This document shows, in pieces, positions 50 through 18,784 of a DNA stretch of 21,748 nt (within the stretch, counting starts at the first letter, position 1; every line of letters starts with the position of its first letter). Made by a program: the position numbers and the translations under genes. Source of the stretch: Ectocarpus siliculosus (lineage: Eukaryota; Sar; Phaeophyceae; Ectocarpales; Ectocarpaceae); assembly GCA_000310025.1 (NCBI GenBank), contig FN649727.1, positions 465,452 to 487,199 of the forward strand. Direction: 5' to 3'. Below the pieces are notes generated by a model. The model was not told the DNA's origin, did no database searches, and worked only from the letters and a program-made list of their open reading frames with translations.

Positions 50-3000
50 CTGCAGAACGAAGGGGGGGGGGGGGGGGGGGGGGCAGCGAGTGCGACCATG
101 AATAAAGGGGCTGCTTGATGTACTCGAACTATTTAGTTATGATACACGGGGTCTCAATGGGTGGGTGTTGTGTAGGTACTGACTGTAGGGTCCCCCGTCC
201 CTGGTGCATGAATGAGCCTCCTGTTTTCTCTGTCTGTCTTCAATCTACTCATAAACAGGAGAAGGCTACCGGAGAGCACCCAGGAAAAAAACAGGCTGTA
301 TCGCTTCCGCGCGAGACCTCACCGCGTCCGGCAAGTTAACGCAAGCAAGAAAAAACGGCAAGATTGTTGCACCAAGTCGCTCTTGCCCCGACCTGCACCA
401 AGACACTGCTGTTTTGGACCTCGTCAAGCGATTCTATCCATCACTTACTGTGCAAACGTTCTTCGTTTCTCCAGGTGCGGAGAAGACCCCACCAAGACCA
501 ACCGCACTGAAAACCCCTCCGACGTAACCACAGAACAACTTACCGTTGAACCTATCAACCCCCCAACACATGTTCTTGACATCTGTGCACACCTTCCTCC
601 CCTCACCCCCCCGCCTCCCGTTCCCCGGAGCCCCCCACCTACCTTCCTGGCCCGCTTCCCCAAGACACTCCCGTGCACGCCCCCCCCGAACAACCCGCCG
701 GACTTCCCATCCAGCTGCCGGAGATCCGCCTCCCTCAGCCCCCGCGAGCGGGACGGGTTTTTGTCCCCGCTCCCTACCTTCCTCTTCCCGCCGCCGCCGC
801 CGCCGCCGCCGCCGCTCCTACCGCTGCTGCTAGCCGTCGGTGAGCCGAACCGACCGGCGACTGCAAGGGCGTTCGCTATCGCCGTCGCCGCCGCTGTTGT
901 TGCCGCTGGTGCGGTGGCGTGGCCGGCTGACGGAGACAAAGGCGGGCTTTCTCTCCCCCCCCCCGAGAGCGTTGTGCTGGGAGAGGATGGGGTTGCGATA
1001 AGCGCGTCTAGCTCTGCGTCCGTGAGATCGCCGTCCTCCTGAGGGGGAAGGGAAAAGGCGGGGGAGGTATAAGGGACAGGAAGCGAGTGGGGTAAAAGGG
1101 AAAGGAGCGAGGGAGAGGGAGGTAAAAGGGAAAGGAAGCGAGTCGGGTGTGAAGGAAAAGAAGCGAGTGGTGAATAAGGGAAAATACGCGAGTCGGGTAT
1201 GAAGGAAAATAAGCGAGTGCGGAAAAGGGAAAAGAAGCCAGGGAGGTACAAACAAGGAGAGGAAGCGCAGGTTCGCAGGTATGCGGGAGAGGAAGCGTGA
1301 GGTGAGGGTGAGATTCAAAATATGCGAGGGATCCGAATCGCACACGCAGGAACTGCACGGAGGTGTTCAGCGCCAACACTTAGCAGACTGTTGTCCATGT
1401 TCTCCAACTCACACTCTCATAGGTCTACAGTATCTCCAAAAATAGAAGAAAAATAAGCCTCGATGCTTGACTGAAGCGCAGTCATGCCTTGGCGCACCTT
1501 TTGCAACAAACGAATCACAGCGATAGCAGTCCATCGCGCGGACACAACGTCGCCGCCACACCACAACAATAACAAGTCTCTTCAAAGAGGCGACGTTATT
1601 TGTACCTGGGGTTCGACCACGGCACGCGCCCCCTCATGGATGAGCGATGCCAGCTCTCCCTTGGACATGGAGTCTTCCTCCCCCCCAACCGCCAACGCCT
1701 CCTGCGCGTCTTTCTCATCCCTGTGGTCGCGGCCCCTGTGTCCCTTGGCAGAGTCTGGCGAGCCCCACTCATCCACGTCCTGTTGTTGTTGTTGTTGTTG
1801 GCATTGTTGTGGTAGTGGTTGTTGTTGTTACAGTTGTAGTTGTGTTTGCCTTCACAGCAAAACACAACTAACTTTCCATTGCACCATACCAGCCAACCAC
1901 AAACAGCACCCATTAAACACTCACCATTTTTGCGCAGTCATAATGTCGTCTTCTTTCCGCGACTATCCTCTCTTCCACGGAACGCCTACACAACAGGCGG
2001 AAAACCTTCACCGGCTTGGACTGGCCGATTCGGTGCACCCGTTCTATCGCTTGCAGGTCCACCTTTGATGTGCGGAAAGGGGGGGGGGGGAGTTAGGGAT
2101 CATTGTGCCGGTTTTCCCCAAACGTGGTCCAACATTTGACGGTTTATCGCTTGCTATCGGTTTTCCCTGGACAGCAAGCAGTACCGCAGCAGCCCCAGTA
2201 CGGCTTTCCAGGTGTGGTCGGTCTGGATTAACTCCCCGGATCACCCATCCCTCCAAAATTGCCTACTTGTACATAAATACCTTGGGTTGCATAAAATACC
2301 ACACACCCCGGACCGATTTTCAAAGCCCGGTTAATCTGCACAGGACAAACACCGACGGTGCCCCAAATGGCGGCCTTGGAACAGTCTCCTCCAGAGCTTT
2401 CCGGAAAAGTACCGTTTGACTGTGGCTTCCTCCTCCTCCCGGAACACTTGGCCATTGAAATTCGGTCCAGGGTTTGTGAGCCTTACGTCACCTACCGCAC
2501 ACTACGCTGCGCTCAAAACAAAAAAAAACACACACACGTCCTCACACCGGAGGCCCTCACCAACCCACATGCCCACATGCAAACCACACCACGATGCTCT
2601 ACAGCTCCCACGAAACACACGAACACGCCCGTGCTACGCCGAAACTCTCACGAAACACACGCACACGCGAAAGTCCCACAAACAAGGCCGGGACCCACCT
2701 GGGGGTTCCAGTGGCTATCGTACAGGATCACCGTATCCGCGGCGGTGAGATTGAGGCCGCCAGACGCCCCCGTCATCCTAGTCGGCACGAGCAACACCGA
2801 AACCTTCGACTCCGGAGCGTTGAAGCGGCGCGCGTCCAGTCTTGTCTGGGGGCTGCTGGTCGACTCGTCCAGGCGACCGTGCTCATAGCCTCTCGCCAGG
2901 CAGAGGTCCTGTAGGATGTCCAGCATGGACGCGAACTGCGAGAGGATCAAGCAGCGGTGCCCCTTCGCCTGAAAACGAAAAAGAAACAGAACCGGGGGGG

Positions 3001-6000
3001 GTTAAGCGAGGACGGAACGGGGGGGGGGTATACTCATAGCCGTGCATGCCATAGTCGTTGAAGCATAGACCTCGCATTCCTACAAAGCCGGGACGGAGCA
3101 CTGGGGGGGTTACAACATCAAAATCTCAATACTGTCACCAATCCCAACTCCACACCACAAGCGAGAGGATGGAAGGCGTAGGGAGTGCTTCCCGTCGGAG
3201 GCGCGAACAAAATTTGACTCAGGACCTTGCCTGTCATCTACTAGCGAAGAGGGCACGCTGGCCCAGGCACACACCAACATGATCTCCGCAGATCCGTAGC
3301 TAGAGCCGAGATTCCCCAACAAGGGGGGCCGGGTGGGCTAAACATAAAAATATCACCACCAACACCAACAACAAACCGACCTGGAGCCTGGGCAGCATCC
3401 TGTCCAGCAACGCCAGCTTTCCCGAAGCCGCCACCGTGTAATCCACCGTCTGTGACTCCGTCTCCCCAACACTGCGCTCCACGTCCACTAGCATGTGCGG
3501 ATGATTGCACGCCTTGCTGTGAGAGTTAGAGTTGGGTAAAGGTGGCGAGAAAAGGACCGAATCGCGAAAAAACAAGACACAAAAAGAGTGAAATGAAGCC
3601 CGCGGGACAATTCTACGAAATGAAATGTTACATATCCCATCTATTCAGAACAAGTAGTCGTGTGAATGGCATCTTTGCATGCTGTCAGAGGGTGTCACTG
3701 GCAAAAACAGTACCTCCCGCGCTGGCAAAAATTCCCTTCGAAGGTCTCTTCCTCTCTCCTTCTCTCAGTCTCGTATACTCCCGCGAGACAACTTCCACAG
3801 CCAACCTAGAACCGATACGGGCAGCGACAGCAACGATACCGCTATCACCCCCCACTAACCCACCGGAGGTGCACCAACAAGGTCATCAGCTTCTGGTAGT
3901 GCTCGTCCTCCCGCTTGACCACCGCCGCCATCTCATCCTCCCGGCATTCCCCGTTCGCGTCCCCCCTGCCCTCCCCGCAGCTCTCCCCTGCCACCGCACG
4001 ACCCGGGGACATGGGCCCACCGTCCCCCCCTCTTCCTGCTCCAACTCCGTCGTGTTTCTGCCCCTCCACCCTGATAGCATCGGCCAATTTTCGGTCTTGG
4101 ATGACCAGCAGGTGGCGATACACCAGGTGCTGGGCAGGGGTAAGCTTGACCAATATCTTCACCTCTTCTCTCGGCGGCAAGTCCAGCTTGACCTGTCGGG
4201 GGGGGGCGCGAAGAGGTCACGCTTGCCGATTAGCGCGCACCCTACATACCACAACACGTTTGCGGTTTGCTCCCGAAGAGAGTCGCAGTTGGCATTCAGG
4301 AACTCCAAACGCCCGTACGACTTGCTTCCCTACAGAGGTGCCGCTAAATATTGGGCACTCGACATGAAGTTCTCTCAAGAAGACGCTTAAACCTTTTTTC
4401 AATGAGGGCACCCGTTCGCTTCCTACGCCAAAAACCGCGGCAAACAGCAGCCCAAGGCTAAGGGTAGGGCTAGGTAACGGCTACATAGGGTGATTCGCCA
4501 GCAATAGGTTTAGGGTTTCCCCGACAGATCAACGTCCAACACCTCGAAACGTCGACAAAAGAATGGCCATCACGCCCTTTCTTCTCGACTTCGACGGTGG
4601 TGCATCAAAATACACAAGTCACCGCCGGACCTGTGTCTGCTTCTAGTCTCTGCCCTTCGCCAGCTGCCTGCACCCCAACGCTAACCACACTCTCTCCTCT
4701 CGCACACCGAAAAATTAATCAGCGCAAATCACTATTGTACCGAAGGGAAGACAGGACAACTTCTGTGCAGCTATAAACCGGAGCGCTCCTTCGTAGCAAC
4801 GACGAGAGACAACAAGAAAGCAAGAGGGTCGGGAGGTATTTGGCTTGCCTGCGCCTTTGCTCTCCGGAGCATGAACACCGAGAGAAGGTCGTTCGCCTGG
4901 TCGACCCTTCGAGGATAGCAAGCCCCCGTTGCCGCGTCGACTCCGTCTTCGAACCTTTGGGCGATCACAATCAAAGCGGGCGAAAGCACGCGCAACAAAG
5001 GGAATCAAGACACTCGGAGATGTCGGAGGTGTCGCAACGCGGCTGCAGTAAAACGCGACAAAAAAAAACGCCGTACTGACTGACTGCTGGCTGGCAACAG
5101 CGCGCTCTCGGTACCGGTTACGTCACCGATGCTGTGGTGGTGTCAGCCTGGTGGGTGGCGCAGCAGTAGCCACGGCCGGAGCCTAAAGACATAGCCCACA
5201 GGTGGCGACGAAAAACCGCGCAAGAACAAAATAATTTTTTTCTTTTTGCAAAAACTCTGAACTGAACGCACTGCTATAAAATGCAGGGGCGAGAAACGCA
5301 TCACTACGCGGAGACGCCGGCAGCGGCGATACAGCGGCCACGTCCACGCCTCCTCACACACGCATACAAAAACCCTGCTGCCTGTCTGCACGCACACATA
5401 CCTCTCCGCGGTGTCCTCGGGGAAGACGTCTGGCACGAGGAAGTGCAGCACCGCCCAGAGCTCGCGAAGGTCGTTCATGCCACCGTCGGTCCTCGGAGGC
5501 ATGCCCGTGAGAAGCACCCGGCACATCGTATTCACCTGCAGGGTTAGGGTCAGGGTTATGGTAATGGTAATGGTAATGGTAATGGTTAGGGTCATGGTTA
5601 GGGTCATGGTTAGGGTTAGGGTTAGGGTTAGGGTTGGGGTTTTAGAGGGAGGATCACCATCACGGGAACAAAAACAAAACCGGACGGCGCTCGTTCACGA
5701 ACATGAGATACTGCTGTACCTGCTGGCTGTCGGTGCAAGCAGCTAAGTTTCGTGGGGACGAGCCCACTTCTGCAATGGGCCGTGCCCCGTGCCCACTGCA
5801 GCATGGGGCTGGAGGCTACTCATTGCTGTGACTCGGGCGATTGCCGCTACACGTATGTATGATACATGGGCGCATACATAAAAATTGCTCTTTCGGGCCG
5901 AAATTACTAGCCGTCCAGGTGCGCTCGTGGCGCTCATTTTCAAGACACCGTCCGCTCGTAGTCCGCAAGAAACGAGAGAGTTTGGATAATGCCTGGCTGC

Positions 6001-9000
6001 CTGGGGCCTTTTTCATGATTATTCACTCAGCGCTGAGAGCGTAAGAGGAGCTCAGCAACGCAGATACCATCGCCGTATGTCTCCCCACCCCCCCCGAAAC
6101 AATATGCATATTTCTCCCTCTCCCCCTCGAAACAACATGCATACAATAATAATAAAAAAAAACGCAATATCTGCCCATACCCTCTTCTTTCGAACATCAT
6201 CTCGTGTTTGCTGTTATTGCTTCAGGCGTTTGGGACATGAGACAAACCTGCTTGAGCTTTTGGCTGAGCTGGGACTTGTCGTTTTTCAGTTGGCGGTGCC
6301 CCTCATCGACGACTACCAGCTGCCACAGCACCGAGCGCTTCTTGAAAAAGCTGCCTTCCGCCGAAAACGTCTCGTGTGTCGTCACCACCACTTCCGACTC
6401 GACCAAGTCCTTCATCTCCGTCTGCCGCGTTACACAGCAGGGTATATGCCAGGGTAACAACCGGTTGGCACAAGCGGCGTGAGGGAGACCGAAATCAAGT
6501 CAACCAAGAACGTCAAAAGCCAGGTGCTTCTCCACATATACGCTGCGTATCAACACCCATCGATACACTGCTTATCTACCGGTTTCTCGCTCCTCGTGAC
6601 GTGGGGTCCACGTCAAAGTAACAAAACATTCGGTCCAGGGGGTATGATACCTCGTTCGACCTACCGATAAGTCTAGAGATCGTCCTAATACAGCAGCAGA
6701 TAGAGCGGTAGGTTTCACCCTTCACAATGTATCGTACCTCCTTGATGCGACTTCTCTCCTCCTTCGACCCGTGGAAGCGTACTGTGCGCAGGCTGGGGCA
6801 GAACTTGTCAATCTCGGACATCCCTGAAACGGCGACACGTGAAAAAAGGTCCTCGGTTGGGAGACGGGCAAACAATTCGCACTGTAGAAGGTGCCGTGCA
6901 ATACACCACCGCATGGCCGGCGTGCCGAGAGGACGCGCACAATAAAGTGGACAGCACTAAAAGTCGACAAACCGCCGAGTAAACACCCCAGGACACCATT
7001 AATCCCCACACCACTTCATAATTCATTTGGACGCTTAGAAAGCACCAAGGGTCGCGTGACGTCGAGGAGGAGTCGAGGTATCAGCGGCGGCAACTTAGTT
7101 CTCTGCGTGTCCAAGACACCGGGGGTTATGACTACCGCGTCCTCGACCCTCCCCTTCGCCGAACAGGCGAAATAGTACTCACAGGTGCCGAGGGCGTCAG
7201 AGGGCACCACGATGAGGAAGGGGCCGCTCACGCGTTCCGTGTCCTCCTGCAACTGCTGCAGGTGGGCGATGAGAGCGATGCCTTGGAGGGTCTTGCCGAG
7301 ACCCGTCTGATCCCCCTGTTGGTGGAGGCACCGAAGGCGAGAGAGGGGGGGGGGGTTCGGCGCCGTTAACCTTTAGCCTGATTCCGATCCAGGTTCGTGC
7401 CCGTTTTAGGGGCACCACACTTTCCAGGAACCCTAATTATGCCGACACATGGGGGAGAAAAAAAAATGTTTCTACACGTCTTCGACAATCCATAGCCTCC
7501 AGCGACCGCGCTCCGTGATCCCGTAGACGAGAGCACGTCGTTGTAGCACAACAGTCGCACCGCATCAATCCGTCAGGATTTCCTTTCTCACCAAGATGAG
7601 GGGCATGCCGTTGTTGTACATGTGCACCATCCAGCTCAGCCCGTCTCTCTGGTAACCTTGGAGAGTTGCCTTGATCGACTCCGGCACGTTGACGGCGGGC
7701 ACCTTGAGGGAAGCCATCGCAGAAAATATTCGATACAAACGCCGGCGACGCTTCGTCATGACGTGGGCCGAGCGTCAACAGGTCGAGGTGCGCAAGCTGA
7801 CGCCGTGCGTAGGCCGTAAGAATGCCCGTCGGCGTGGAAGAAAATCAACCAGAAACGCTTCAGGAACGCACAACATGCAGAGCACCACTCCAACAGCAGG
7901 AAGCACCTACGAGTGAGCTCAAAGAGTCCCTCCAAGCTGCTTTACGGCCCCATGGCTTCGATGGAAGGATCGGCACCGCGACGACAAAAGACAAGAGACA
8001 AAAGACAAACATAACGCACAGACACCACAAACAAGGACGCTCGACAAAATAGAAACGCTTACCCCCTTGAGAACATTCGAGGGGTCGAAATCCTCCGCCG
8101 CCATATCTACGTCTTCATCCTCTGCCTTTCTCTCCGACAGGGGCTCCTCCACATTCATCCCCTCTTCTTTCACCGCCTCCTCCGCTCCAGCTCCGCCCTT
8201 CACCTCCCGCGGTCCCTCCTGCTTACCACCATCTCCGCCCGCTCTTTCACGTCGAAGCTGTTCCTCCTCTCTCCCATCAAACAGCGCCTCCGCCTCCGCC
8301 TCCGCCTCCGCCTCCGCCTCCGCCCCTCCCCCGTTCGCGCTTCGTCGCTCGCTCGTAACGCCACCGCCGTTCTCCCGCCGTGCCAGTGTCACCTCCGTCG
8401 CTGCCCAAGCAGCGTGATGTCGGTCTCGCGCCGTGTCCGGCTCAACGCGAATCTTGTCCGCGTGGCTGTCTGAGCGATGAGCGGGGGCAGGAGCAACGGC
8501 GGCGCCGCCCTCACCCCCGGCCGCCCGCCCCGGCGGCCCCCTGACAGCACCCGAAGACCCACAACTCTCCTTCGCGGCCGCGGGGCCCCTTCCGCCCCTG
8601 CCCGCAAACACTTCCGCTCCCAGCCCCAGCATCGCCGCCGCCGCTACCGCCGCGTCGTTGGCGCCCTCGGCGCCAGCCACCGCGGCGGTGACATCGGCGG
8701 AGCTCACCGACCGGACGTGCATCCGCCCCGCCCCGCCGCCGCCTTCCAGCGGAGGGTCCTTTGCCGGGCAAGACAGGATGTCGATACCCCCGGGGCCCCG
8801 CGGCAGCTGGTGGCTCCTCCTGGGCGGCGACAGCGATGCAGATCGGGGGTGGTGGCGCGACCCGTTGCCCACTCCGCCGCCCCCCCGCCCTGCCCCAGTC
8901 GGCGAGCGCTCCAAGCCGGCTGCCGCCACCGCCGCCGCCGCCACCGCCGCTGCCGCCGACATCGAAGGTCGTTCGGCGGCGTCCCTGCTGCGGCCGTCGC

Positions 9001-12000
9001 TGCCGCTGCTGCCCCCGTGGCTACTAGCTCTAGATGGATCGCCCGCGGCGAGCGCAGCGGTGGCGTCCGCGACGCGTCGTGCAGAGGATGGCGCCTGCCG
9101 GGTGACGACGGGGGCGAGGGAAAGGTTCTTGCGCAGGGTGTCCTTCAGGAGGCGCTTGTAGATGGCCGCGTAGTACGGCGCCGCGCAGAACTCTCGGGTG
9201 ACGTTGTACCGCCGTTGGGTGTGCGGGTTGATGATCTGCGGTGATCAGCAGGCGGTGGGGGGGAGGGTCAGGGATCATCTTCTATGGCCACTAAGGACAG
9301 TATTGGGTGGTCGTGACATGTTTTTTATCCAAAAGACACAACGCCGTACATGATTCCTACCGAACGGAATATCCACGTCGGACGTGATTTATCCCTCAGC
9401 AGCGGTGCACGATGTGTCGTTTCTTTTCGCAGTGCCTCACGGTATCTACAGTGCCTTGTTACTCGCTCTCCGGGTTGAATACCGCTAGTTAGAATCTGTT
9501 GCCCGTGGAAGAACATGGTCTGACCTTGGCCTGCTTGAACAATTCAGCATTGTACCACCCGTTTTTTGAAAAATTCTCTGACTTAAAAATGGTACGGGAG
9601 AGGAGGTACTGGATGGAGTGCAAGAGAGGGCTCAAACTACAACAACAACCTGGATAGTCGCAACATACACACGGCCATCAGCACACAACCAAGAACGTTC
9701 GCTCACGCTGAAGGTCACGAGGTTGTCCACGGGGATGTTGTTGCGCTTCGCGTACGACTGCGTTCGCTTCATGAAGCCGCTCCGGTGCTGAACGAACTCC
9801 CCCGACCTCAGCCTGAGCGCGGTCGTGCGGCCGATGATCCGTGGCACGGGCGGGGGTGGGTAGACCCACCCGTGGGGGCCGAGGACCGGCTCGGGCGGGA
9901 GCGGGGGTGCCAGGCTCTCCCGCTTCTCGAGGTAGTACACGTGGTTGTAGTTGAGGTCCACCTGCAGCTGAGACAGCTGCGAGCGTGCACGAGGACGGGA
10001 GAAAAGAAAGGGGGCTCGCATTGTTGAAAATAAATGAGTGTGTGAGGATGAATTCGGGAGCCGCCTTCGTGTGGCCCGCATATGTCCGGTATGCGGCACT
10101 TGCCAATAACGCACACCATATCCAAGAGCAAAAAAACAAAAAGAGGTACAGCTTTTATTTTTGGTATTTTTTAGGGTTGCTGAGTGATGGTTCAACAGCT
10201 CCGAAGAAGGCCCGCACGTAGCCCCCTCCGGAGCCAAAAAAATACACACGCGGAGACCGGAACGGTTTTTAATGTGAAGACAACAACAACAACACACTCC
10301 AACAATATGAAGCGAAAACCTACCTCTCTCTGCCTCCCGGACCTAAACAACCCCCCCCCCCCCCCCCCCCCTTTTGGGGGGGGGGGGGGGGGGGGGGGTT
10401 TTGTGGGGGTGGGGCTGCGTTGTAAAAAAAGGGCGCCGGTTGGGGGTTTGTGGGGGGGGGGGGGTTTTTGGGTGTGGGGTGGGGGGGTTTAGAAAAGGTG
10501 GTTTTTTTTTGGGGGTGGGGGGGGGGGGGGTGGTTTTTTTTTTTTGGGGGGTTCTGGGTGGGGGGGGGGGGGTTTTGTTGGGGGGGGGGGGGGGATTCAG
10601 TCTGGGTGGGGGGGGGGGGGGTGGTCTGGGGGGGNNNNNNNNNNNNNNNNNNNNNNNNNNNNNNNNNNNNNNNNNNNNNNNNNNNNNNNNNNNNNNNNNN
10701 NNNNNNNNNNNNNNNNNNNNNNNNNNNNNNNNNNNNNNNNNNNNNNNNNNNNNNNNNNNNNNNNNNNNNNNNNNNNNNNNNNNNNNNNNNNNNNNNNNNN
10801 NNNNNNNNNNNNNNNNNNNNNNNNNNNNNNNNNNNNNNNNNNNNNNNNNNNNNNNNNNNNNNNNNNNNNNNNNNNNNNNNNNNNNNNNNNNNNNNNNNNN
10901 NNNNNNNNNNNNNNNNNNNNNNNNNNNNNNNNNNNNNNNNNNNNNNNNNNNNNNNNNNNNNNNNNNNNNNNNNNNNNNNNNNNNNNNNNNNNNNNNNNNN
11001 NNNNNNNNNNNNNNNNNNNNNNNNNNNNNNNNNNNNNNNNNNNNNNNNNNNNNNNNNNNNNNNNNNNNNNNNNNNNNNNNNNNNNNNNNNNNNNNNNNNN
11101 NNNNNNNNNNNNNNNNNNNNNNNNNNNNNNNNNNNNNNNNNNNNNNNNNNNNNNNNNNNNNNNNNNNNNNNNNNNNNNNNNNNNNNNNNNNNNNNNNNNN
11201 NNNNNNNNNNNNNNNNNNNNNNNNNNNNNNNNNNNNNNNNNNNNNNNNNNNNNNNNNNNNNNNNNNNNNNNNNNNNNNNNNNNNNNNNNNNNNNNNNNNN
11301 NNNNNNNNNNNNNNNNNNNNNNNNNNNNNNNNNNNNNNNNNNNNNNNNNNNNNNNNNNNNNNNNNNNNNNNNNNNNNNNNNNNNNNNNNNNNNNNNNNNN
11401 NNNNNNNNNNNNNNNNNNNNNNNNNNNNNNGGAACAATATTTCGTCCTCTGGAGGACGCGTGGTCAATGGTTTAACAGCTATAAGGCATGCAATACACAA
11501 GAGTACCCCTCCCCCCCCCCCGCTGCCTGGGAGTCGCATGGTCATGCTGTTGGCTAGTGGCCGAACTTCATGGAATCACCGCCAACATTCCAACCCCGCT
11601 TTCGTAGCTTCGCTTACGCCAAATCGAACGCCTCGAGCAGTCAGCACCAGCCCCAAACCTGCACACATAACACACACACACGAGGCTGACAGCGGGGAGC
11701 CAGCCCACTGACGAAAAACATGTCGTGTTCGCCTTTTGTTTACTACGCTGTAAGACTTGGGCTTCTTTTCCATTGATCAGTCCACTATAATCGAGCGGTC
11801 GATGCCAAAACAGAGCAACCTATACACACGCACGTACTAGCCTCCCACACGCCCAATCACGGAGCCCCCACAAGCGTTTTCCTATTTTGGCGGCACTATT
11901 TGATACTGACGTCTTTTCACTGGTCAGCCCGTTCGCGCGGTCGATGCCAACCAAATAAACACACACACCACACATAAGCAGGGGGCCCACGACAACTAAA

Positions 12001-15000
12001 CCACAGACCACCGCACCCACCTTAACCAGGGTCTCCGCCACCGTCATCGGGTCCGCGGGGATAGCCTTAAAGTCGATGTCGTCCATGGGGTTAACCTCTC
12101 GCGGAGGTGCCGGTACTGGTGCCGCCGGCGGCGGCGGCGGTGGCGGCAGCGGCGGCGAAGGCTGTCTCTCCTCCGGCGAGAGCGCCCCTCTCTCTCCCCC
12201 CTTTCCACCGCCGCCCTCCCCGGCTTGACCATCACCCCCTCGTTCGGCATGGGATTCTTCTGTGGGATGCCGACTTCGCTCCGTCTCTACTTCTGTCTTT
12301 CGGAGATCCGGGTTTGCGGCTTCAACGGCGGGTTTTTCTGTCGCCTTGTCTCTATCCTCCTCCTCTAGCTGCTGCTGTTGTCCCAGAGCGAGGGACTTAT
12401 CCATCCTGGCGAAGAAGTTGTCGCTGGCTTGCATGAAGGGCAGCAGAAATGCTCTCCTGACGTTGTGTTGGTGGTGGCGATGGTGGGAAATAGAACGGTC
12501 AACGAGAAAAGCCAGGCAGGGGCGGGGTGAGTCGTCGTCGTCATGACGGCTGAGGGACTCGAGAGAATATCTTAGCTTAAAAGTACACTTCTCAAAGCAA
12601 AAGACGATCAAAAAGCAATACCATCTCTTAGATTCCGCGTACACTGCGGTCTGTCGTGCACCTGGCCACCAAAATAAGGGAACTATGGTCACGTTGGAGG
12701 GCGAGGGACGAAAAATCATTTCACCCCCCAAACCAGAGCCCCCCCCGCGAAATCGCACATTTTCACCCCCATGCCCCACCCTCCCACCCTGTCGTGAAGC
12801 ACCAGCCTGCAAATCTCCAACCTCAAAAAGCTTGTCTCGCAGCAACAGCAACAGCATCACCACCGCCGACACACACCAATGCTCACCCCCACCACGACTC
12901 CCACCGCCACCACCACGTCAACAAAAAAACATATTAGGAACAATGAATAAAAATACTTCGTGTTACATATCTACGTTGGAGAGAAATCACACCTACCAAT
13001 CCTATGCATGCAACAAAAAAACAAAGTGTACATGTATACCTCTTGGAGAGAAACTCGTTTCGTTTTCGAGCTACTTCCTCCATCGTCGCCCGCATCTTCC
13101 TGTTCGCTTCCGCGGCCTCCCCTCTACCCCCCGTTGCCCTGGGCGCAGCAGGCTTTCGACCCGTACCGGAAGGTTTCCGTCCCGTCTTGGCCTGTTTTAT
13201 TTATTTTTTTACGGAAAAAGCGAGCGCGTGGGCAAACACCGGGTCAGCGACGCTGCCGAGGAAGCGCGCCAGGGTTTGTCTCCTCCTCGAGCATACATGG
13301 TTCGCTACGCTAAGCATTGTTGGGTTTGGGTTTGATCAGGTATCGCGCGTCCTGGACCGATTTTCAGGGCTCGCTCGAGTACTCCGCAACACAACACAAA
13401 CCGTGGCTGTCCCGAAAACGATGTCGTTGGAACCGTCTACCCGAGAGCTTTCCCACAACGTACCGTTTGATTTACTGCTGTACTTCCATTATACAACCTC
13501 TTCATCGTGGAGGAATGGGGCGTTGGAAAATCGCTCCAGGGTTTTTGATGTTCGATGTTAGCTACGGGCGGTAGTTTGTTGTAGTGCAACGGAGACTGTA
13601 GTCGAGCTCCCTCCCAGCAATCACTTAACTTTTGAAGGCGCTGCTCTACCAACGAGCGGGCTTCGTTCTTGTCTATGTATCAGTACGCGAACAACACGAC
13701 GTCCCCTGGGCAGCGCCCAATACGGCCAGCGGCCGTTCGCTCCGTTGTGAGTATGTCCGCACGTATGTTTCGAAGTGCAATCGGCGCGCTACATAATATC
13801 GTGGCCAAATTGTTTGCACGGCCGTCCCAAAACGACTTGTCTCGTGCCAGACCTCTCTGTACCTTGTGCGCTGTCACAACCCTATCACCAACCAACTCCC
13901 TAAACGACCGGGATGTGCAAGGGCATAAGGCGGTAGCAGCCAACAAACCGCATCAGCGTAGAGCAGCCAGTCGGTCAGCCAACGCACCTCCTCCTGTTCT
14001 CACCTGCGGACCGAAAAATACATCCCAACTCATAGTATATCGGCCAAAAACAGTGCCAGAGACCGTCTGAATAGGCGAAGGAAGCCCCCTCCCCCCCCCC
14101 CCCATCTTCCTCGCTATCACCTGTGGGGTTAGCACAGCAGGAGTGCTCCCTCCCTTCCGCCGTGGCTCCTCCTTCGCGCTAGCCTTCTCGTCCGCGACGC
14201 ACTTCGGAAACAGGCGGTACGAGTGCTTGACCTTCTCCACCACCCCCTCGGACACGAGTTTCATCACGGCCTGCCCAGGGATTTTGGTTGAAAAACGGCC
14301 GGAAGAGGACCGAAAAAAAAAAACAGGGTTAAAAAGGCTGACCGCACACAATCGGGACACGATGTTCGTCAAAGCTTTGCTAGGAGATGGTTGAATCCGA
14401 CACTACTGTACTGCCGAACGAAGAAAACAAGAAACTAGATATGCTACGTACACTAGACCAAAAGCATCGGCAATTATTCGGAACCCGCCATTTGGTTCAA
14501 CGGCTCGCGAAAACGCCTCCTCGGTAGTAGAGAATTCGAAGGGGCCACGTGTGCACACACCTACGGGATATGTAAGTATATCGATGGCAGATGATGCCGA
14601 TCCCCGTGAGGGGTAGAGGGCCTGGAAGCCCAGTTGCATCAGCTTTTGCGGTGTTATCGGAAATGCTTCAACAGAAAAGGCTCGTTCGAGGTCTTACCGC
14701 ACGGTCCAAGCACAACGACCAACTCAGAGTTGGCAAATCTAGATGGCACGCGATAGCGAGGAGCCCTGTGTACGCTGCAGCAGCGCCGACAGCTGCTTGT
14801 GCCTTCGGGTACCAAGGGTCGAACCTGCACCTATGTATGCACTTCATTGCTGCAGCAAGCGATCAACACATGCTCTGCAGCCCGAAAAATCAAGCAAGTG
14901 GTTGCCGACACCGAAATACCTAACTGTTCTGACAGGAGGCCACCATCGGTGATTAATCCTGCGCCGTTTGACGTCTACTGAACAGAGAAGATTTTGTCTT

Positions 15001-18000
15001 TTTCTAAACTTGTTGTCTGTAACAAGAACAGCATGCAAGAAAATAATGTCGAGTGGCACCAGCAGTAACTTACCTTGATGGTGAGATTGTTGAAGCTGGC
15101 CTTCTGCTTCTCCTTCGTCTCGGGGTGCTTGTCCTGGATCCACTTGCGGATGGAGGGTAGAGATACCCCGCTCTTTTCGTTGAGCGCGCTGATAGACTGC
15201 CGCACGAGAGCAGCAGAAAAGACAGACAAATAATTATATGAATAGTACCAATAAACAAATACCGGTTGTACAGCAGTAGGAGGCCCTCAGGAGTGTCGGC
15301 ATGGACCAGACCACGATCCCGGCACCATTCAGAAGGACCCGTACCATTCAACGTACCGAATGACTTGTGATTCAGTCGGTGCCCGCCCAGAACACCGGCA
15401 CTACACCGGCCGTCGGCACGATTCAAACCGGCGCTGCTGAGGGCCCCTGTCTGTACACTCGGAGGAGAGACACTTGCTCATGCGAGCTTGGGAGGGCACC
15501 ACAAAACCTATTGCTGGCACGCTATTCAAGACCATGTGTGCGAGCATGCCAAACCCGCTTGTTGCGTGTGTGAGGGCATGACGAAACCCATCGCTGACAC
15601 GCTATTTGTAATCGCCTCCCGCATGTGTGCGCGTGGATGCCATCCCACTTGCTTGTGCATACTGCACGACAATCCATGCATTGCAGACGACATGACATGC
15701 TAGTCTCCGTCTCCGCCTTAAGAAGGTGGTGTCTGTATGCCATCCCAAGATGCTGGAAATGAGATGTTACACCCGTGTCTTGGGTTTGACATCATACTTC
15801 GCAAGTACAAATTGCGAGGCGTTTCTTTTTCGGTGTTTTTCGGCGCACCCCATGCAAGCTGTTGCTCAGCGGGATGCTGATAATTTCTCTGTTCGCGTTG
15901 CAGGGAACAGAGGACGCGCAGCACAGCAGCACGTTTTCGCACCACAGTACATCACCCGACACAGACTGGGTGACAACCAAAAACACCGGGCAAAGAGAGT
16001 TGATTGCAGCACCTCGATGTTTGTACAGCAAAATCCGGTATACTTGTCGACGCGAGTTTTTCCGTACAATATCGACCTCAAACTCCTCGCGATGGCGACA
16101 GAAAGGCCGTCATGTGCGCGTCTGCTCAAACACTTCAGGAAACGTTACATACTCGCCCACGCACGAAGTGCTTACCACCAGTACGTGAACACGGACGGAC
16201 GGACCGTGGGGCAACTCGTCGTTGTCGGTGCCGAACAAAATGTTTCCGAGGACGACACATAATTATTCCACACCCTGAGAGAGCTACAATCGAAGATGTA
16301 ACGCCCCTCTCTTGCGTACACAGCAGCACACACGTGCATCCTTCCTTTCAGTAGGCTGCCACTGGCGTGGAGGAGACGGCACTGCAGCGTCTACCTGCTG
16401 TGAGTGTACCGCAGCACCTTTGCCCTTCTTTGCGAGAAAAACCTGAGCTCGCAGGAAACTCTTCTCCCCCTCTCCCTCCGGAAAGTAGTTCAACGCGTCC
16501 GTCCCACTTTGAATCCCGAGAGCGGGCAATCCTTGCGTGACGTCATACTAAGGTGCGCTTCGTACGAAAGGGCCACCGGCTCAAGACAGAGCATTACTCG
16601 AGCGGATGTGATGGAAGTCAGCTACATGTCACACACCAGATGGTCAGCGACGCTGCCCGAGAGGCCCAGCATCAATAACCGGGTAGGAAGCAAGGTCTCC
16701 AGTCACTCACAGAACAGTGCCGCCCCACAGATAGATACCCTTCCCTCTTTTCAAACACAAAACTTTCCCGACATCATTCCCCCTGAGAGTTCGTCCGCAC
16801 TTGAAACTCACCTCCAGCACCATTGTCAGGTACTTGGACTTTCTCCCCGTTGGAGTGGTCGCGCCCCCTCCGGACTGCGATGATTCGCCAACCGCCTTCT
16901 TAGCTTCTGCTGCCCCCGGCTCGCCGCCTTCGGTTGCTCGCTCAATCTCCCACTTTTTCGGGGGGCGGAAGGCGAGCAAGGGCGCGACCCAGGCGAAACA
17001 GAAACAAGAGCGGAGGGGGAGAAGGCGAAGCCGGCGCGTTTGAAGTTTGGCTCTTTCTGGGGTTTGGTGCCGCGTTCCTGTTGTGCGGCCAAAACAAACA
17101 CCCCTTCGATGCAAAACGCTGCAGCACGGAGAGGGATGGGACATGCCGGATGCCCACTCGCCGCTCCAGCCTACCGCCGGCTAGAAGTTGCGGACTCCTT
17201 GACAACGGGGTGAACTTCTTGATTTGCTGCTATTAATAGCAGCTTCACACCCGAAAGTCCGAAAGCAGTCCGTCCGTTGTATGGTATGTTGTACGGCGGT
17301 ACATATCTGCGCATCTGCCGACACGCCGACATGCGAAAAAAAAAAAATGCACCTGTTCTGAACCCGATTCCAGGTCCTCGATGTACACATCCGTGTCCAC
17401 GCCGTCGTAGATGAGCTGGTGCTTCGCTGTGGCCGAGTCGTAGCTGCGACCGCCATCACGTCAGGGTATGTGGGGTCGGGGTCGGGAGGCAGAAGAGCGT
17501 CGAGGGGGGGGGGGAGCTTTGGGTGTGTCGTCCATGTACACACACACACACGCCGCAGCAGCAACGAGGTGGTGGTGACACATGACCGTTTGTCTCTTTT
17601 TTCTGATTTTTTTTTTTATCCAACAGCGACGAAAAAGGCGACACGCTTTCCTCCCTGCGCATGGAGAGGCTTGCTTCGGTAGAGAGGACAGAAGGGGCTG
17701 AGAGGGGGCGGATATCACACATCAAGAGCTCCGGCAAGTCGGCGGCCGAAACGAGGGCGAACCGGTCGGGGCTGTGTGTGTCGGCACGTGATAGAAGCCA
17801 GCGGGGTTTCATCACCCAACAACTCGCCGCCGCCTGCTGCTGCTGCGGTTTGAACACAGGTTGCTCCCTCTCATATTTTCGTGCGCGTCGTGTCTCGTGT
17901 TGCTGGAAGAACACAGGCAGCTACACCGAAACCCTTCAGAATTAACGGCCTTTTGGCCTCTACCGCGTGGGGACAGCAGGTACCCAACCCCTCCGTGGGC

Positions 18001-18784
18001 GGGAGACAGACTCCCGTCACAAGCTTTTCGCTCACCCCTGTTTGCTTACATCGAACAGACCGTCTCGCTCTCTCTCTCTTCTGTTTCTCCACCAACGACA
18101 TTTTCCGCTGCTGTCTCACACTCGCACATACGTGCCCACTCACCCTACGACCTTCCCTTCGTACCACACCATGTCTCCATCCCACCAGATGCGGATTCGG
18201 CTGCCAATGAGAGCTGCTCCGCGCTCCTCCTCCTTCGCCTCCTCCCAGAGAACTTCCACCATCTTCGCCTAAAACTCTAAAAATCAACAACGTCGCCGTG
18301 TTCAAAAACCGGGAGCGAGAGGGCCCGTCTTCCCCTGCGTGTTTGCCGAAAGCACAGCCGGGGGCGAGCCTCCGAACGCCAGGAGAAGCGGCGCCACGCT
18401 GGCGGTGTTGATGGAAGCAAGTGCTTGGTCTGACCCCTGTGTGCTTCTCGGCAGCAAGAGAGCGCGGTTTGAAGAGTCCGAGCACACACCACACTACTTG
18501 CTTGGAGGAGACAATTGGAGACAACGGGCGGGGGCACCACAACCAGGAATTTACGTGATGCCCCTGCTGGCGGTATCATTTCAGCATTTGTCCTGCACAT
18601 TACATCATTTGCTCCGCCGTTGCCGCGTGGCGGTGCACAGGTTGCTGTTGCAGGGCTTACGAGAGGAAAGTGTGGTGCTGCTTGAGAGAGACAGGATGGG
18701 CGTTGCGCACTCCTCCCAGGGGCTCACCTGCCTGGAGAATCCGCCGAAAAAGTGAGTCCCAGGTCCCAGAAAACACACACGCAT
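1..18784 (-). CDS. SNF2-family chromatin remodeller with Tudor-like and linker-histone (H15) domains, 24 exons, 3' end off window
   Basis: Exons read high to low: 18784-18728, 18268-18144, 17443-17353, 16952-16812, 15196-15074, 14270-14121, 13191-13040, 12456-12021, 9976-9707, 9575-9525, 9235-8063, 7702-7592, 7315-7183, 6823-6738, 6421-6248, 5535-5402, 4954-4849, 4192-3864, 3516-3381, 2968-2699, 2062-1925, 1779-1606, 1038-643, 49-1. Every junction has an AG acceptor and a GT donor except one GC donor (4848), and phases agree throughout, so the domains form one frame of about 1,668 residues with no stop. ISWI proteins are usually 1,000-1,100 residues; the excess is the N-terminal half. It should act in the nucleus, using ATP to move or restructure nucleosomes. 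The motor resembles ISWI and CHD1L/ALC1 most; the subfamily is uncertain. Weakest points are the first exon, the small exon at 9575-9525, the last exon and anything hidden in the assembly gap. A split into two genes cannot be excluded without transcript data. Confidence 0.9.
50..642. other. Intron 23 (593 bases)
   Basis: It holds a 22-base G run near 61-82 and C-rich sequence at 590-642. Open frames here are low in information. No further exon was convincing. Confidence 0.5.
643..1038 (-). CDS. Exon 23: end of post-motor segment and low-complexity tail
   Basis: It opens [20 protein letters not shown], matching the E-I-T-D-E-D-I-D-x-I-L element that follows the G-A helix in ISWI; exons 22 and 23 join in phase 0. 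The remaining about 110 residues are Ser/Pro/Ala/Gly-rich, with a poly-glycine run encoded by CCG triplets at 788-815 and basic clusters ([16 protein letters not shown] and GKRARK) that could act as nuclear localisation signals. The donor is AAG|GTAGGT. No HAND-SANT-SLIDE domain is visible inside the window; it could lie beyond the left edge. Confidence 0.75.
1075..1245. repeat. Minisatellite, about 25-bp unit, in intron 22
   Basis: The motif GCGAG recurs at 1083, 1107, 1138, 1163, 1188 and 1213, each followed by a GT- or GG-rich stretch and A/G-rich sequence such as GAAGGAAAA. Units diverge at several positions and one is longer. The plus strand is almost pure purine, so the transcribed strand of the gene carries a long pyrimidine tract ahead of the acceptor at 1039. 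Confidence 0.85.
1606..1779 (-). CDS. Exon 22: post-motor segment
   Basis: After an acidic/basic linker ([20 protein letters not shown]) the exon carries [20 protein letters not shown]. This corresponds to the L-x-K-x-E-L-x-x-x-I-x-x-G-A segment that follows the motor in ISWI and CHD1-type remodellers and folds back on lobe 2. The acceptor sits directly at the end of the TTG/CAA triplet repeat (1781-1830); the donor is CAG|GTACAA. Confidence 0.82.
1781..1830. repeat. TTG/CAA triplet repeat at a 3' splice site
   Basis: A run of TTG triplets, then interrupted GGTAGTGGTTG-type copies. On the gene strand this is (CAA)n ending in CAACAG, whose AG is the acceptor of exon 22. Length change here would alter the distance between branch site and splice site. 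Confidence 0.9.
1925..3516 (-). CDS. Exons 19-21: SNF2 ATPase lobe 2, motifs IV-VI
   Basis: Exon 3516-3381 begins [20 protein letters not shown] and ends [16 protein letters not shown]. Exon 2968-2699 has motif [21 protein letters not shown], the [13 protein letters not shown] segment, and motif V in an altered form, [20 protein letters not shown], then LYDSHWNPQ. Exon 2062-1925 gives motif [22 protein letters not shown], with the arginine finger in HRIGQ (about residues 1426-1430) intact, then [19 protein letters not shown]. The exon order is exactly that of the family. Motif V normally reads S-T-R-A-G-G-L-G-I-N-L; here it is three residues longer and substituted. Confidence 0.93.
2280..2505 (-). 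mobile_element. Inverted-repeat element copy 1 (MITE-like)
   Basis: It lies in intron 20. The left end reads CCCCGGACCGATTTTCAAAG and the right end, read inward on the other strand, CCCTGGACCGAATTTCAATG: a 20-base terminal inverted repeat with 3-4 mismatches. Outside this core the ends still resemble each other in a looser form. It has no coding capacity. The internal part aligns with copy 2, for example GAGCTTTCC and GTACCGTTTGA. Confidence 0.65.
2508..2690. repeat. A/C-rich low-complexity tract
   Basis: It begins with an A run and a short CA repeat. It contains a near-copy pair: CACGAAACACACGAACACGC at about 2609 and CACGAAACACACGCACACGC at about 2650. It fills intron 20 immediately after the exon 20 donor. 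Confidence 0.6.
3864..4954 (-). CDS. Exons 17-18: end of lobe 1 and inter-lobe region
   Basis: Exon 4954-4849 reads [19 protein letters not shown] and exon 4192-3864 continues [20 protein letters not shown], matching the conserved F-L-L-R-R-x-K-x-x-V-x-x-x-L-P-P-x-x-E segment of SNF2 motors. The join needs a GC donor at 4848 (CAG|GCAAGC). After [20 protein letters not shown] the exon holds an insertion of about 60 Gly/Ala/Asp/Glu-rich residues, not present in ISWI, before resuming with [15 protein letters not shown]. The split arginine codon (CG|C) leads into the conserved R-K-A-C-N-H-P motif. Confidence 0.9.
4193..4848. other. Intron 17 (656 bases, GC donor)
   Basis: This intron starts with GC on the gene strand. 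The stretch 4450-4530 contains degenerate telomere-like words (GGCTAAGGGTAGGGCTAGG and TTTAGGGTTT). No exon or RNA gene is evident. Confidence 0.5.
4955..5401. other. Intron 16 (447 bases)
   Basis: Nothing recognisable. A-rich and T-rich short tracts occur near 5058 and 5235. Confidence 0.5.
5402..6421 (-). CDS. Exons 15-16: SNF2 ATPase lobe 1, motifs II and III
   Basis: Exon 6421-6248 carries [20 protein letters not shown] and motif II as [18 protein letters not shown], so the Walker B Asp-Glu (about residues 1072-1073) is intact. Exon 5535-5402 has motif III as [14 protein letters not shown] followed by [19 protein letters not shown]. The segment after motif III is typical of ISWI-like motors, but the normally invariant T-G-T-P-L-Q-N is replaced by [10 protein letters not shown] with a few extra residues. 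The intron between these exons contains the telomere-like array. Confidence 0.93.
5541..5645. repeat. Interstitial telomere-like repeat (TTAGGG variants) in intron 15
   Basis: About 105 bases of GGGTTA units with interrupted forms GGTAAT and GGTCAT, purest at the 5607-5640 end. On the gene strand it is (CCCTAA)n ending CCCTGCAG at the acceptor of exon 16, so it occupies the position of the branch site and pyrimidine tract. Confidence 0.92.
5646..6247. other. Remainder of intron 15
   Basis: It includes two related stretches near 6085-6150 (CCCCCC..CGAAACAATATGCAT and CCCCTCGAAACAACATGCAT), a short imperfect tandem repeat. No gene seen. Confidence 0.5.
6577..6670 (-). mobile_element. Inverted-repeat element copy 3 (partial)
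   Basis: In intron 14. The right end reads CATTCGGTCCAGGG and is followed by a stretch ending CCTACCGATAA that aligns with CCTACCGCACA beside copy 1. Part of the interior (ACCGGTTTCTCGCTCCTC) weakly matches. No left terminal repeat was found, so it appears truncated. Confidence 0.45.
6738..7702 (-). CDS. Exons 12-14: SNF2 ATPase lobe 1, motifs Q, I and Ia
   Basis: Exon 7702-7592 gives [20 protein letters not shown], the Q-motif region found in SNF2 motors as L-x-x-Y-Q-x-x-G-L-x-W. Exon 7315-7183 supplies motif I as [20 protein letters not shown], with the Walker A lysine present (about residue 968), and motif Ia [13 protein letters not shown] tryptophan codon split T|GG joins exon 6823-6738, which reads [20 protein letters not shown] and EERSRIKE, as in ISWI and CHD1L. 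In motif I the usual D-E-M before GLGKT is D-Q-T here. This lobe binds ATP and DNA. Confidence 0.93.
8063..9235 (-). CDS. Exon 11: 391-codon, mostly disordered exon
   Basis: This is the largest exon. Its first about 45 residues ([20 protein letters not shown], then [17 protein letters not shown]) complete the ordered block encoded upstream. The rest is Ala/Gly/Ser/Pro-rich: alanine runs, Gly-rich stretches, and an (Ala-Glu)n run encoded by a CTCCGC hexamer array at 8285-8324. The last 40 residues turn strongly acidic ([20 protein letters not shown]) just before the motor. The donor is GGG|GTAAGC. Acidic patches before ISWI-type motors often regulate the ATPase, but here that is only an analogy. 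Confidence 0.85.
8285..8324. repeat. CTCCGC hexamer array, coding
   Basis: Tandem CGCCTC hexamers inside exon 11. On the gene strand they encode an alternating Glu-Ala run. Hexamer-length change keeps the frame. Confidence 0.9.
9525..9976 (-). CDS. Exons 9-10: unrecognised, ordered block before the motor
   Basis: Exon 9976-9707 (90 codons) reads [20 protein letters not shown], then a proline-rich turn containing [18 protein letters not shown] and a basic end ([17 protein letters not shown]). A small 17-codon exon, [17 protein letters not shown] (9575-9525), is supported by an AG acceptor, a GTCAGA donor and by joining both neighbours in phase 0. The run continues into exon 11 with [20 protein letters not shown]. 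Aromatic and basic residues are dense and there is little low complexity, so this is probably a folded, conserved module of about 140 residues. I do not recognise it as HSA, SANT, PHD or chromodomain. Confidence 0.65.
10250..10293 (+). repeat. Dispersed repeat, copy A
   Basis: It contains GCGGAGACCGGAACGGTT followed by TTTAATGTGAAGAC and a CAA-rich tail. The same sequence with one substitution in the first 32 bases occurs at 19150. Similarity stops at GCGGAG on the left, which suggests an element boundary. Confidence 0.75.
10351..10634. repeat. C-run/G-run fold-back and long G-rich tract
   Basis: Twenty-one C, four T, then 23 G form a perfect potential hairpin, followed by about 235 bases of almost only G and T up to the gap. 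The composition is unlike the rest of the window and is probably at least partly a sequencing or assembly artefact at a hard-to-read locus. Confidence 0.85.
10635..11430. other. Assembly gap (796 N)
   Basis: Unsequenced bases within intron 8. Long open frames crossing it are meaningless. True size and content are unknown. Confidence 1.
11764..11955. repeat. Diverged direct duplication in intron 8
   Basis: CTTTTCCATTGATCAGTCC..GCGGTCGATGCCAA (from 11764) recurs as TCTTTTCACTGGTCAGCCC..GCGGTCGATGCCAA (from 11912), offset about 148 bases, each followed by an ACACAC-rich stretch. Confidence 0.6.
12021..13191 (-). CDS. Exons 7-8: basic helix and proline-rich linker
   Basis: Exon 13191-13040 opens with an H1-tail-like basic segment ([17 protein letters not shown]) and then a long charged helix, [20 protein letters not shown]. 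The split arginine codon runs into exon 12456-12021, which begins [20 protein letters not shown], a compact hydrophobic motif I cannot assign. The remaining roughly 115 residues are disordered: a glutamine run, acidic/basic repeats, Gly-rich sequence, a polyproline run encoded by GCC/GGC-type triplets at about 12120-12175, and a short acidic end ([20 protein letters not shown]). The two phases fit, and the helix plus hydrophobic motif reads as one continuous structure across the junction. Confidence 0.75.
13192..14120. other. Intron 6 (929 bases)
   Basis: It holds element copy 2 and, at 13640-13662 on the minus strand, a tRNA D-arm-like sequence (GCTCGTTGGTAGAGC). An 88-codon minus frame at 13946-13680 has no splice support. 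Confidence 0.5.
13325..13575 (-). mobile_element. Inverted-repeat element copy 2 (MITE-like)
   Basis: In intron 7. The left end at 13351 is CCTGGACCGATTTTC and the right end, on the other strand, CCTGGAGCGATTTTC: 14 of 15 identical. Interior blocks shared with copy 1 include TTGGAAC..TCT, GAGCTTTCC and GTACCGTTTGA in the same order. It is non-coding. Confidence 0.65.
14121..16952 (-). CDS. Exons 4-6: linker histone H1/H5 (H15) winged-helix domain
   Basis: Exon 16952-16812 ends [12 protein letters not shown], exon 15196-15074 reads [20 protein letters not shown] and ends ASFNNLTIK, and exon 14270-14121 starts [20 protein letters not shown]. Joined (all phase 0) they match the H1/H5 globular fold: helix 1 with Y-x-x-M-x-x-x-x-I-x-A-L, a K-S-G-V-S-L-P-S-I turn, helix 2 ending in a lysine-rich stretch, then helix 3 with L-V-x-x-G-V-V-x-x-V-K-x-S-Y-x-L as the wing. 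The domain covers about residues 131-202 and is near the usual 70-75 residues. It is followed by a Lys/Arg/Pro-rich stretch like an H1 tail. H15 domains bind linker DNA at the nucleosome dyad, so this should anchor the remodeller to linker DNA. Exon 4 begins with an acidic, Ala/Gly-rich linker. Confidence 0.82.
14271..15073. other. Intron 5 (803 bases)
   Basis: It interrupts the H15 domain between helix 2 and helix 3. Nothing recognisable apart from an A run near 14313. Confidence 0.5.
15485..15655. repeat. Diverged tandem duplication in intron 4
   Basis: Two units of about 80-89 bases. Shared words in order are GAGGGCA, AAACC..T..GCTG.CACGCTATT, CATGTGTGCG, ATGCC and the CCCGCTTGT/CCCACTTGC end. 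The second copy carries about 9 extra bases. There is no coding potential. Confidence 0.7.
15656..16811. other. Remainder of intron 4
   Basis: An 81-codon minus frame (16529-16284) looks superficially coding, but an exon here would interrupt helix 1 of the H15 domain, whose flanking exons already join perfectly. Otherwise nothing recognised. Confidence 0.5.
17353..18268 (-). CDS. Exons 2-3: Tudor-like domain
   Basis: Exon 18268-18144 ends with [20 protein letters not shown] and exon 17443-17353 continues [20 protein letters not shown]. The split glycine codon joins in phase (GG + C). The pattern of a small basic strand, W-x-D near a W-Y-x-G turn, then Y-D-x-x-x-x-K-H-x-x-x-Y-D-G is that of Tudor/PDS5-type Tudor-like barrels, which bind methylated lysine or arginine or serve as protein-docking modules. 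It covers about residues 40-88. A glutamate-rich helix (LWEEAKEEE) precedes it. The ligand cannot be told from sequence; the aromatic residues (two Trp, Trp-Tyr, Tyr) could form a cage. The 700-base intron 18143-17444 shows open minus frames, but an exon there would break the barrel. Confidence 0.7.
17444..18143. other. Intron 2 (700 bases)
   Basis: It splits the Tudor-like barrel. It contains a G run at about 17505, a CA dinucleotide repeat near 17537-17550 and a T run near 17610. No additional exon fits. Confidence 0.5.
18728..18784 (-). CDS. Candidate first exon (19 residues or 5' leader)
   Basis: An ATG at 18784 opens a 19-codon frame beginning MRVCFLGPG that ends in CAG before a consensus GTGAGC donor. 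Its phase fits the acceptor at 18269, giving Ala-Lys-Met-Val at the junction. The peptide resembles nothing I know, so the exon may be only a transcribed leader, with translation starting at the in-frame ATG at 18262 instead. No firm TATA box is visible upstream. Confidence 0.35.

Follow-up and report, generated by a model that had tools for sequence, protein, structure and literature searches.

The window analysed here, a stretch of 21,748 nucleotides of the Ectocarpus siliculosus genome (contig C2, 465452-487199, in an assembly searched over 189 Mb and 492 contigs), carries a gene on the minus strand whose 21 exons run from 18,262 to 643. With exon borders drawn by hand, these join into one stop-free frame of 1,611 amino acids. 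The phases agree at every joint and all introns are GT-AG, with the sole exception of a GC-AG intron after exon 15. Exons 1-5 (18,262-14,121) encode a Tudor-like barrel and a linker-histone globular (H15) domain. The barrel (17353..18262) is formed by exon 1 (18262-18144) and exon 2 (17443-17353), as placed by the gene model and by comparison of a family profile with PDB chains, and its start codon at 18262 is shared by the relatives P0001-P0003. The H15 domain (14121..16952, residues 109-173), located by PF00538 and by the genome search, is spread over the end of exon 3 (16952-16812), exon 4 (15196-15074) and the start of exon 5 (14270-14121). Exons 6-7 (12021..13191) supply a basic linker, a conserved segment (residues 236-281) and a low-complexity stretch, and exons 8-9 (8063..9967) a conserved middle region followed by a long low-complexity stretch. 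A run of N lies at 10635..11430 (no strand), where about 75 amino acids of the middle region, present in all four close relatives, are absent from the model; in the alignment with those relatives the missing residues occupy columns 509-589. The stretch 10347-11430, adjoining the run of N, is rich in C/G homopolymers and probably reflects an assembly problem.

Both lobes of an SNF2 motor are encoded by exons 10-19 (1925..7702, minus strand, residues 891-1413; PF00176 and PF00271). Motif I (7289..7315) reads GDQTGLGKT, the commonest family form being GDQMGLGKT, and motif II (6281..6307) reads DEGHRQLKN, with one residue inserted relative to DEGHRLKN. Altered sequences stand at 5470..5508, where motif III (TGTP.QNN) is expected, and at 2747..2785, where motif V (STRAGGLG[IL]NL) is expected, and motif VI (2021..2062) has both arginines. 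Exons 20-21 (643..1779) encode a post-motor segment, with the sequence SKGELASLI, that resembles the region after ISWI motors. The 3' end of the gene lies outside the window and the adjoining 10 kb on that side reads N, as does approximately the first 8.9 kb of the 5' flank. In addition, telomere-like repeats (ccctaa and variants) occur at about 5545-5640 in the intron preceding exon 14, and an intronic copy of a dispersed repeat occupies 2290-2510. This repeat has at least 46 genome matches including itself (40 of 153 candidates scored); the other long copies show 70-81% identity, and six short matches of about 36-47 bp run in reverse at one end, like the terminal inverted repeats of MITEs. 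In the upstream flank (9759-9998, + strand), a frame resembles part of an acyl-CoA synthetase or AMP-binding enzyme, as named by eye.

Pfam analysis of the joined protein detected Linker_histone (PF00538) at residues 109-173 (E 7.7e-12, 45.7 bits against a cut-off of 22.4), SNF2-rel_dom at residues 899-1248 (E 6.2e-60) and Helicase_C at residues 1273-1388 (E 2.8e-16), and gave nothing above cut-off at the Tudor-like barrel. A barrel profile built from nine family members retrieved the PDB chain 7de9, 'Transcriptional regulator' (E 2.8e-13), the lamin-B receptor (E 4.5e-5) and, weakly, SGF29 and SMN, all of which we take to be Tudor domains. Compared with PDB chains, the motor scored 326 bits with SMARCA5, 310 with ISW1, 291 with HELLS and 259 with CHD1L; in rank order SMARCA5 and ISW1 are followed by HELLS and DDM1 and by BRG1, and the intact motor of Chrysoparadoxa ranks SMARCA5 and ISW1 before DDM1 and HELLS. 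Because SMARCA5 and ISW1 outscore HELLS and CHD1L, the motor is correctly called ISWI-like. An HDA2/HDA3 match (PF11496) on lobe 2 reaches 27.3 bits, barely above cut-off, and the ISWI control P0083 scores 36.7 bits with the same family. HDA2/HDA3 have an SNF2-like fold without remodelling, and their architecture is unrelated to that described here.

An earlier note on this DNA had proposed that a Tudor-like barrel, a complete H15 domain and an ISWI/CHD1L-like motor share one frame, and had advised an HMM search of the joined protein. The joined model agrees with the predicted single frame and the H15 domain is indeed complete; H15 and SNF2 were matched above cut-off and the Tudor-like part was recognised only through the family profile against PDB. 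As for the motor, the ISWI half of the label holds and CHD1L scores lower. The gene also extends past 14121..18268, the span originally assigned to it.

Close relatives and the wider family

A search with residues 1-880 as query, in which 7,978 candidates were scored, yielded four close relatives: P0001 from Ectocarpus sp. 12 (Phaeophyceae, Ectocarpales; 92% alignment identity to this protein), P0002 and P0003 from two EukProt species, and P0004 from Scytosiphon promiscuus. The two named relatives both belong to the Ectocarpales. P0002 and P0003 fall inside the brown clade of the motor trees and are therefore treated as brown algae. The order of Tudor, H15, middle region and motor is identical in all four, and in comparison with Ectocarpus sp. 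12 the Tudor region is 94%, H15 97%, the middle region 97% and the first motor lobe 93% identical. In the exon 15 region the P0001 model reads WCDLSGSPQQ, unlike this gene, and a GC splice donor was probably missed in its annotation.

Open models of 2,025-2,236 amino acids with a conserved C-terminal part exist for P0002-P0004, and these continue beyond the equivalent of the window and carry a PHD region downstream of the motor. PHDvar_NSD was matched above cut-off in P0003 (E 1e-9, two stretches) and P0002 (E 2.1e-6) and below cut-off in P0004 (E 6.4e-5, two stretches), whose cysteines align with those of the other two. A profile of the C-terminal part, built from seven of the 11 members having it, gave weak bromodomain matches (PBRM1, E 1.1e-5; BAZ2B, about 7e-4). 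A PHD query run without a positive control against the genome assembly, where the adjoining 10 kb reads N, matched nothing.

The gene belongs to a wider algal family that has apparently not been named before. Profile searching led to the metagenomic protein P0005, which combines H15 and the middle region with a canonical first motor lobe; a search with its motor added 35 further proteins (P0044, P0045 and P0047-P0079; 53-79% identity), so that the family counts 41 with this gene and its four close relatives. The border was drawn at the fall in score from 187 to 174 bits that follows P0079, among the best 120 of 3,186 matches (of 7,988 scored); identity by itself does not define it, being 53-79% inside and up to 55% outside. 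P0046 from Mesotaenium (43% identity, rank 4) was excluded because its identity is low and it has two ADEM motors, and is in no tree, and P0077, also ADEM, was retained on the basis of 65% identity and tree position. In a FastTree motor tree of 49 sequences with nine hand-picked outgroups the family splits off with support 1.000, and in a wider one of 122 sequences, which took in 82 of the 83 matches P0080-P0162 (P0082 dropped), all 40 family tips stand together, again with support 1.000. The brown clade has support 1.000 in the motor trees, and its grouping with Chrysoparadoxa, P0064, P0066, P0070 and P0078 has support 0.974 (49 sequences) and 0.999 (122 sequences). Named sources are Chrysoparadoxa australica (PX clade), Scytosiphon and Ectocarpus. 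The family is algal and probably ochrophyte; since names are few and most members are metagenomic, the latter is what we infer.

Among the 41 proteins, the Tudor region was found in 10, H15 in 20, the middle region in nine, lobe one in 41, lobe two in 40, the PHD region in 34 and the C-terminal part in 11. Where present, the modules keep a constant order, with H15 before the motor (20/20), Tudor before H15 (10/10) and PHD after the motor (34/34). Tudor, H15 and middle region had no match in the retrieved proteins outside the family. The brown-algal PHD profile matched 27 non-family proteins at 34-74 bits, some of them green-algal SNF2-PHD proteins, indicating that the SNF2-PHD core is older or wider and that Tudor and H15 mark the family. 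The green-algal proteins (P0080, P0081, P0085, P0095 and others) share an SNF2 motor and a PHD region with the family but form a separate clade, and none of them matches Tudor, H15 or the middle region.

Besides the motor, a similar post-motor segment (SK.EL.S.I..GA) links the family to ISWI (SMARCA5, ISW1). Unlike ISWI, it has Tudor, H15 and PHD modules where HAND and SLIDE are not reported, and its brown-algal motor is eroded. A scan of 12 family members at E 0.1 (P0068 among them stops within the motor) reported neither HAND nor SLIDE, both of which appear in the ISWI control P0083; they are also absent from the precomputed domains of the 35 members found with the P0005 motor. HAND-SANT-SLIDE was likewise not reported after the motor in P0002-P0004, whose models run past it, the present gene being cut by the window. 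An extra HMG box stands between H15 and motor in P0068 and P0072.

H15 was not found in 21 of the 41 proteins, and 20 of these begin at most 237 residues from the motor, as pieces of ORFs would. They include P0077, an MMETSP transcript, and P0073, P0074 and P0076 from the source 'merc', presumably transcripts. The annotated Chrysoparadoxa protein has 330 residues ahead of its motor, with H15 absent. Given these apparently transcript-derived members and the Chrysoparadoxa model, some of the short forms may be genuine. The brown H15 profile scores nine non-brown family members at 57-76 bits and six others at 20-35 bits, and seven other H15 loci of this genome, read regardless of introns, at 15-20 bits. 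The seven further linker-histone loci lie on contigs C27, C15, C241 and C3, and one has a stop inside the match. Histone H1 shares the globular domain family with this gene; here, however, H15 lies within a large protein, as part of the 1,611-residue frame, rather than in a small basic stand-alone one.

These comparisons add to the earlier picture. The combination is not a one-off fusion and belongs to a family including the PX-clade Chrysoparadoxa and many metagenomic proteins; the suggestion to look for the same order in other brown algae or stramenopiles was rewarded in Ectocarpus sp. 12, Scytosiphon and the two EukProt species. The remark that no PHD domain is seen came about because the window ends before the post-motor part, and three relatives reaching further have the PHD region.

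Erosion of the brown-algal motor

Motor integrity was scored at 97 columns that are constant across all nine outgroups and, with one exception allowed, across the remaining family members. This gene carries 13 changes at these columns, P0002-P0004 carry 18, 21 and 23, and P0001 carries eight of 58, some of them in the part where the GC splice donor was apparently missed in its annotation. In the leave-one-out control, 32 of 36 other family members showed 0-1 changes and the outgroups 0-4. The exceptions were P0005 (4/36), P0044 (3/85), P0048 (12/93) and P0078 (8/93), whose excess has been put down, as an unchecked attribution, to ORF ends read into introns.

The changes reach the motifs that define SNF2 remodellers. 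Motif I is GDQMGLGKT in 32 of 36 non-brown members; it is GDQTGLGKT in this gene and P0001, GDEAGLGKA in P0002 and P0003 and GDQPGLGKT in P0004. DEGHRLKN of motif II is found in 36/36 non-brown members versus 0/5 brown ones, which have DEGHRQLKN (this gene and P0001), DQGHR (P0002), DEGHRLF with an insertion (P0003) and DEGQDRLRN (P0004). Motif III, TGTP.QNN in 34 of 36 non-brown members (P0005 being too short to reach it and P0062 differing), is altered in all five brown proteins. TRAGG.G.NL of motif V occurs in all 35 non-brown members covering it (33 with STRAGGLG) versus none of four brown proteins, P0002 reading STRLGGPTVKL, P0003 STRVDGSAVKL and P0004 ELSTAAALTINL; P0001 ends before this motif. 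Both arginines of motif VI are kept in the brown proteins except P0004 (ETAHRIGQ). Lesions differ by relative: P0002 and P0003 have A for T in Walker A, P0002 also has Q for E in motif II, and P0004 has T for R in motif VI. The motor had earlier been treated as working, a view at odds with the erosion of the brown-algal copies examined. In this gene, neither the TRAGG.G.NL of motif V nor the TGTP.QNN of motif III expected of an active remodeller is found. Nevertheless, this copy retains the residues most directly involved in ATP hydrolysis (GKT of Walker A, DE of motif II and the two arginines of motif VI), and ATPase activity is therefore still possible.

The distribution of constraint has also changed. 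The comparison covered 18 proteins with H15 and both lobes, the partial P0001 and P0005 being excluded. In all 91 non-brown pairs the motor was more nearly identical than H15, by 0.29 on average and by at least 0.04; these pairs come from 14 proteins and are not independent, and the non-brown H15 segments were cut with the brown-algal profile, which may lower their identity. In brown pairs, H15 was the better conserved in five of six (e.g., 0.80 versus 0.65). In the sixth, this gene with P0004, the two values agree to two decimals, and another alignment (A1) gives 0.67 for the motor and 0.66 for H15. Conserved H15 beside an eroded motor would be expected if selection continues to act on the reader parts and has relaxed on the motor.

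Searching this genome with P0001, P0045 and PF00176 for another copy with an intact motor turned up other SNF2 loci. All of these with a readable motif I keep it intact among the loci examined (8 of 22, 8 of 36 and 30 of 52 matches, several showing no motif I), in forms such as ADEMGLGKT, ADDMGLGKT, GDEMGLGKT, GDDMGLGKT and ADEMGMGKT; GDQM appears in none. It is unlikely that an intact copy has been overlooked.

Weighing the explanations

The preferred explanation, to which we attach a fair degree of probability, is that a linker-DNA-reading remodeller has turned into a remodelling-dead reader or scaffold in brown algae. Its main competitor, an unlikely one but to be taken seriously, holds that remodelling continues in a protein with a built-in linker histone, the motor motifs having diverged without ceasing to work. 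Retention of Walker A, the DE of motif II and both motif VI arginines in this gene speaks for an active motor, as do the frame open throughout the motor and the close match of lobe 1 to Ectocarpus sp. 12. Smith and Peterson are said to have reported in 2005 that STRAGGLG couples ATP to remodelling. PMC6019379 records, by citation, that removing motif V from yeast Snf2 has an effect on viability, and also that SMARCAL1 functions with a divergent motif V, point mutants there losing only about threefold in efficiency, that is, retaining around a third. Against continued activity stand the 13-23 changes at otherwise invariant columns, the breakage of motif V in 4/4 proteins, the loss of different catalytic residues in different relatives and the shift of constraint from motor to H15. 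Loss of remodelling is thus the better-supported prediction from these comparisons, and loss of ATP hydrolysis itself is less certain for this copy.

The other explanations carry very little probability. Eroding motor motifs with lesions peculiar to each lineage would also suit a pseudogene in decay; yet 21 open exons with good splice sites, the 94-97% identity of Tudor, H15 and middle region to Ectocarpus sp. 12, and the long open models of P0002-P0004 with their conserved C-terminal part make this improbable in the extreme. Slightly less probable again are two adjoining genes, one for a Tudor-H15 protein and one for a separate SNF2 protein. This arrangement could account for the large gap with its run of N between exons 7 and 8 and for the models or ORFs of some relatives that begin after the H15 position, but all four close relatives are modelled as a single protein across the joint, every H15-bearing family protein runs on into the motor, and the phases match throughout. 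Least credible of all is that the gene is the brown-algal SHPRH, from which the earlier note had rightly set it apart. The domain order inside SHPRH differs from the Tudor-H15-motor-PHD order. SNF2, H15 and PHD do occur together in both (SHPRH features as given in PMC6702750), but here H15 precedes and PHD follows the motor, and RING is not reported in the five brown proteins and the twelve family members scanned, an IBR match of E 0.13 in P0004 being located in its PHD region. Among the PDB chains compared, the motor is closest to ISWI, then DDM1, HELLS and BRG1, and by this indirect measure is not of the Rad5 type.

Proposed function and its meaning

The predicted family order runs from a Tudor-like barrel and H15 through a conserved linker to the ISWI-like SNF2 motor, with a PHD region and a bromodomain-like end behind it. 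In the ancestor, with its motor intact, and judging from the domain family, H15 most likely gripped linker DNA in place of the HAND-SANT-SLIDE of ISWI, the Tudor, PHD and bromodomain-like parts would have read histones and the motor would have shifted the nucleosome; sensing of linker DNA by H15, as the earlier note imagined, is a reasonable inference for members with intact motors. In the brown-algal line the motor decayed. ATP and DNA binding may persist in Ectocarpus, the coupling of ATP to DNA movement was probably lost, and the protein would now be an ATP-independent reader or scaffold on linker DNA. DNA and histone binding and the scaffold role are predictions, and we hold it probable that the brown-algal protein has lost remodelling and acts in this way.

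The plant protein MOM1, which is not known to have an H15 domain, offers a parallel. It is likewise a chromatin protein of remodeller ancestry with a degenerate SNF2 region, and that region is dispensable for silencing (PMC2507757), which provides a precedent for a remodelling-dead chromatin protein. Unlike MOM1, which derives from CHD3 (PMC2507757), the brown-algal protein keeps constrained Tudor and H15 regions.

Brown algae are reported to have lost DNA methyltransferases other than DNMT2, as well as the PRC2 subunits EED and SUZ12, and Schizocladia, their sister, keeps DNMT1 (PMC13076208, main text), a text in which SNF2, ISWI, linker histone and PHD receive no mention. A link between motor decay and the loss of DNA methylation and PRC2 is speculation. 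A broader scenario, which we regard as rather doubtful, is that ochrophytes have their own remodeller class in which H15 replaces HAND-SANT-SLIDE, that the brown motor was switched off at about the time DNA methylation and PRC2 were lost, with the protein kept as a giant H1-like reader, and that the family may have acted in ochrophytes as DDM1 acts in plants. If true, there would be a DDM1-like role in ochrophytes, clearing linker histone for DNA methylation, and such a role before the loss of methylation would explain why the motor became unnecessary.

No description of a stramenopile H15-SNF2 protein was found among the literature matches listed, most subscription journals lying outside the coverage of the search. 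The family represents a remodeller architecture without a description in the literature searched, with linker-DNA reading probably built into the enzyme itself. In its brown-algal members nature offers an example of motor decay alongside constrained reader parts, which allows a direct test of the remodeller functions that require ATP. They may also bear on how chromatin is regulated in brown algae after the loss of DNA methylation and PRC2 described in PMC13076208.
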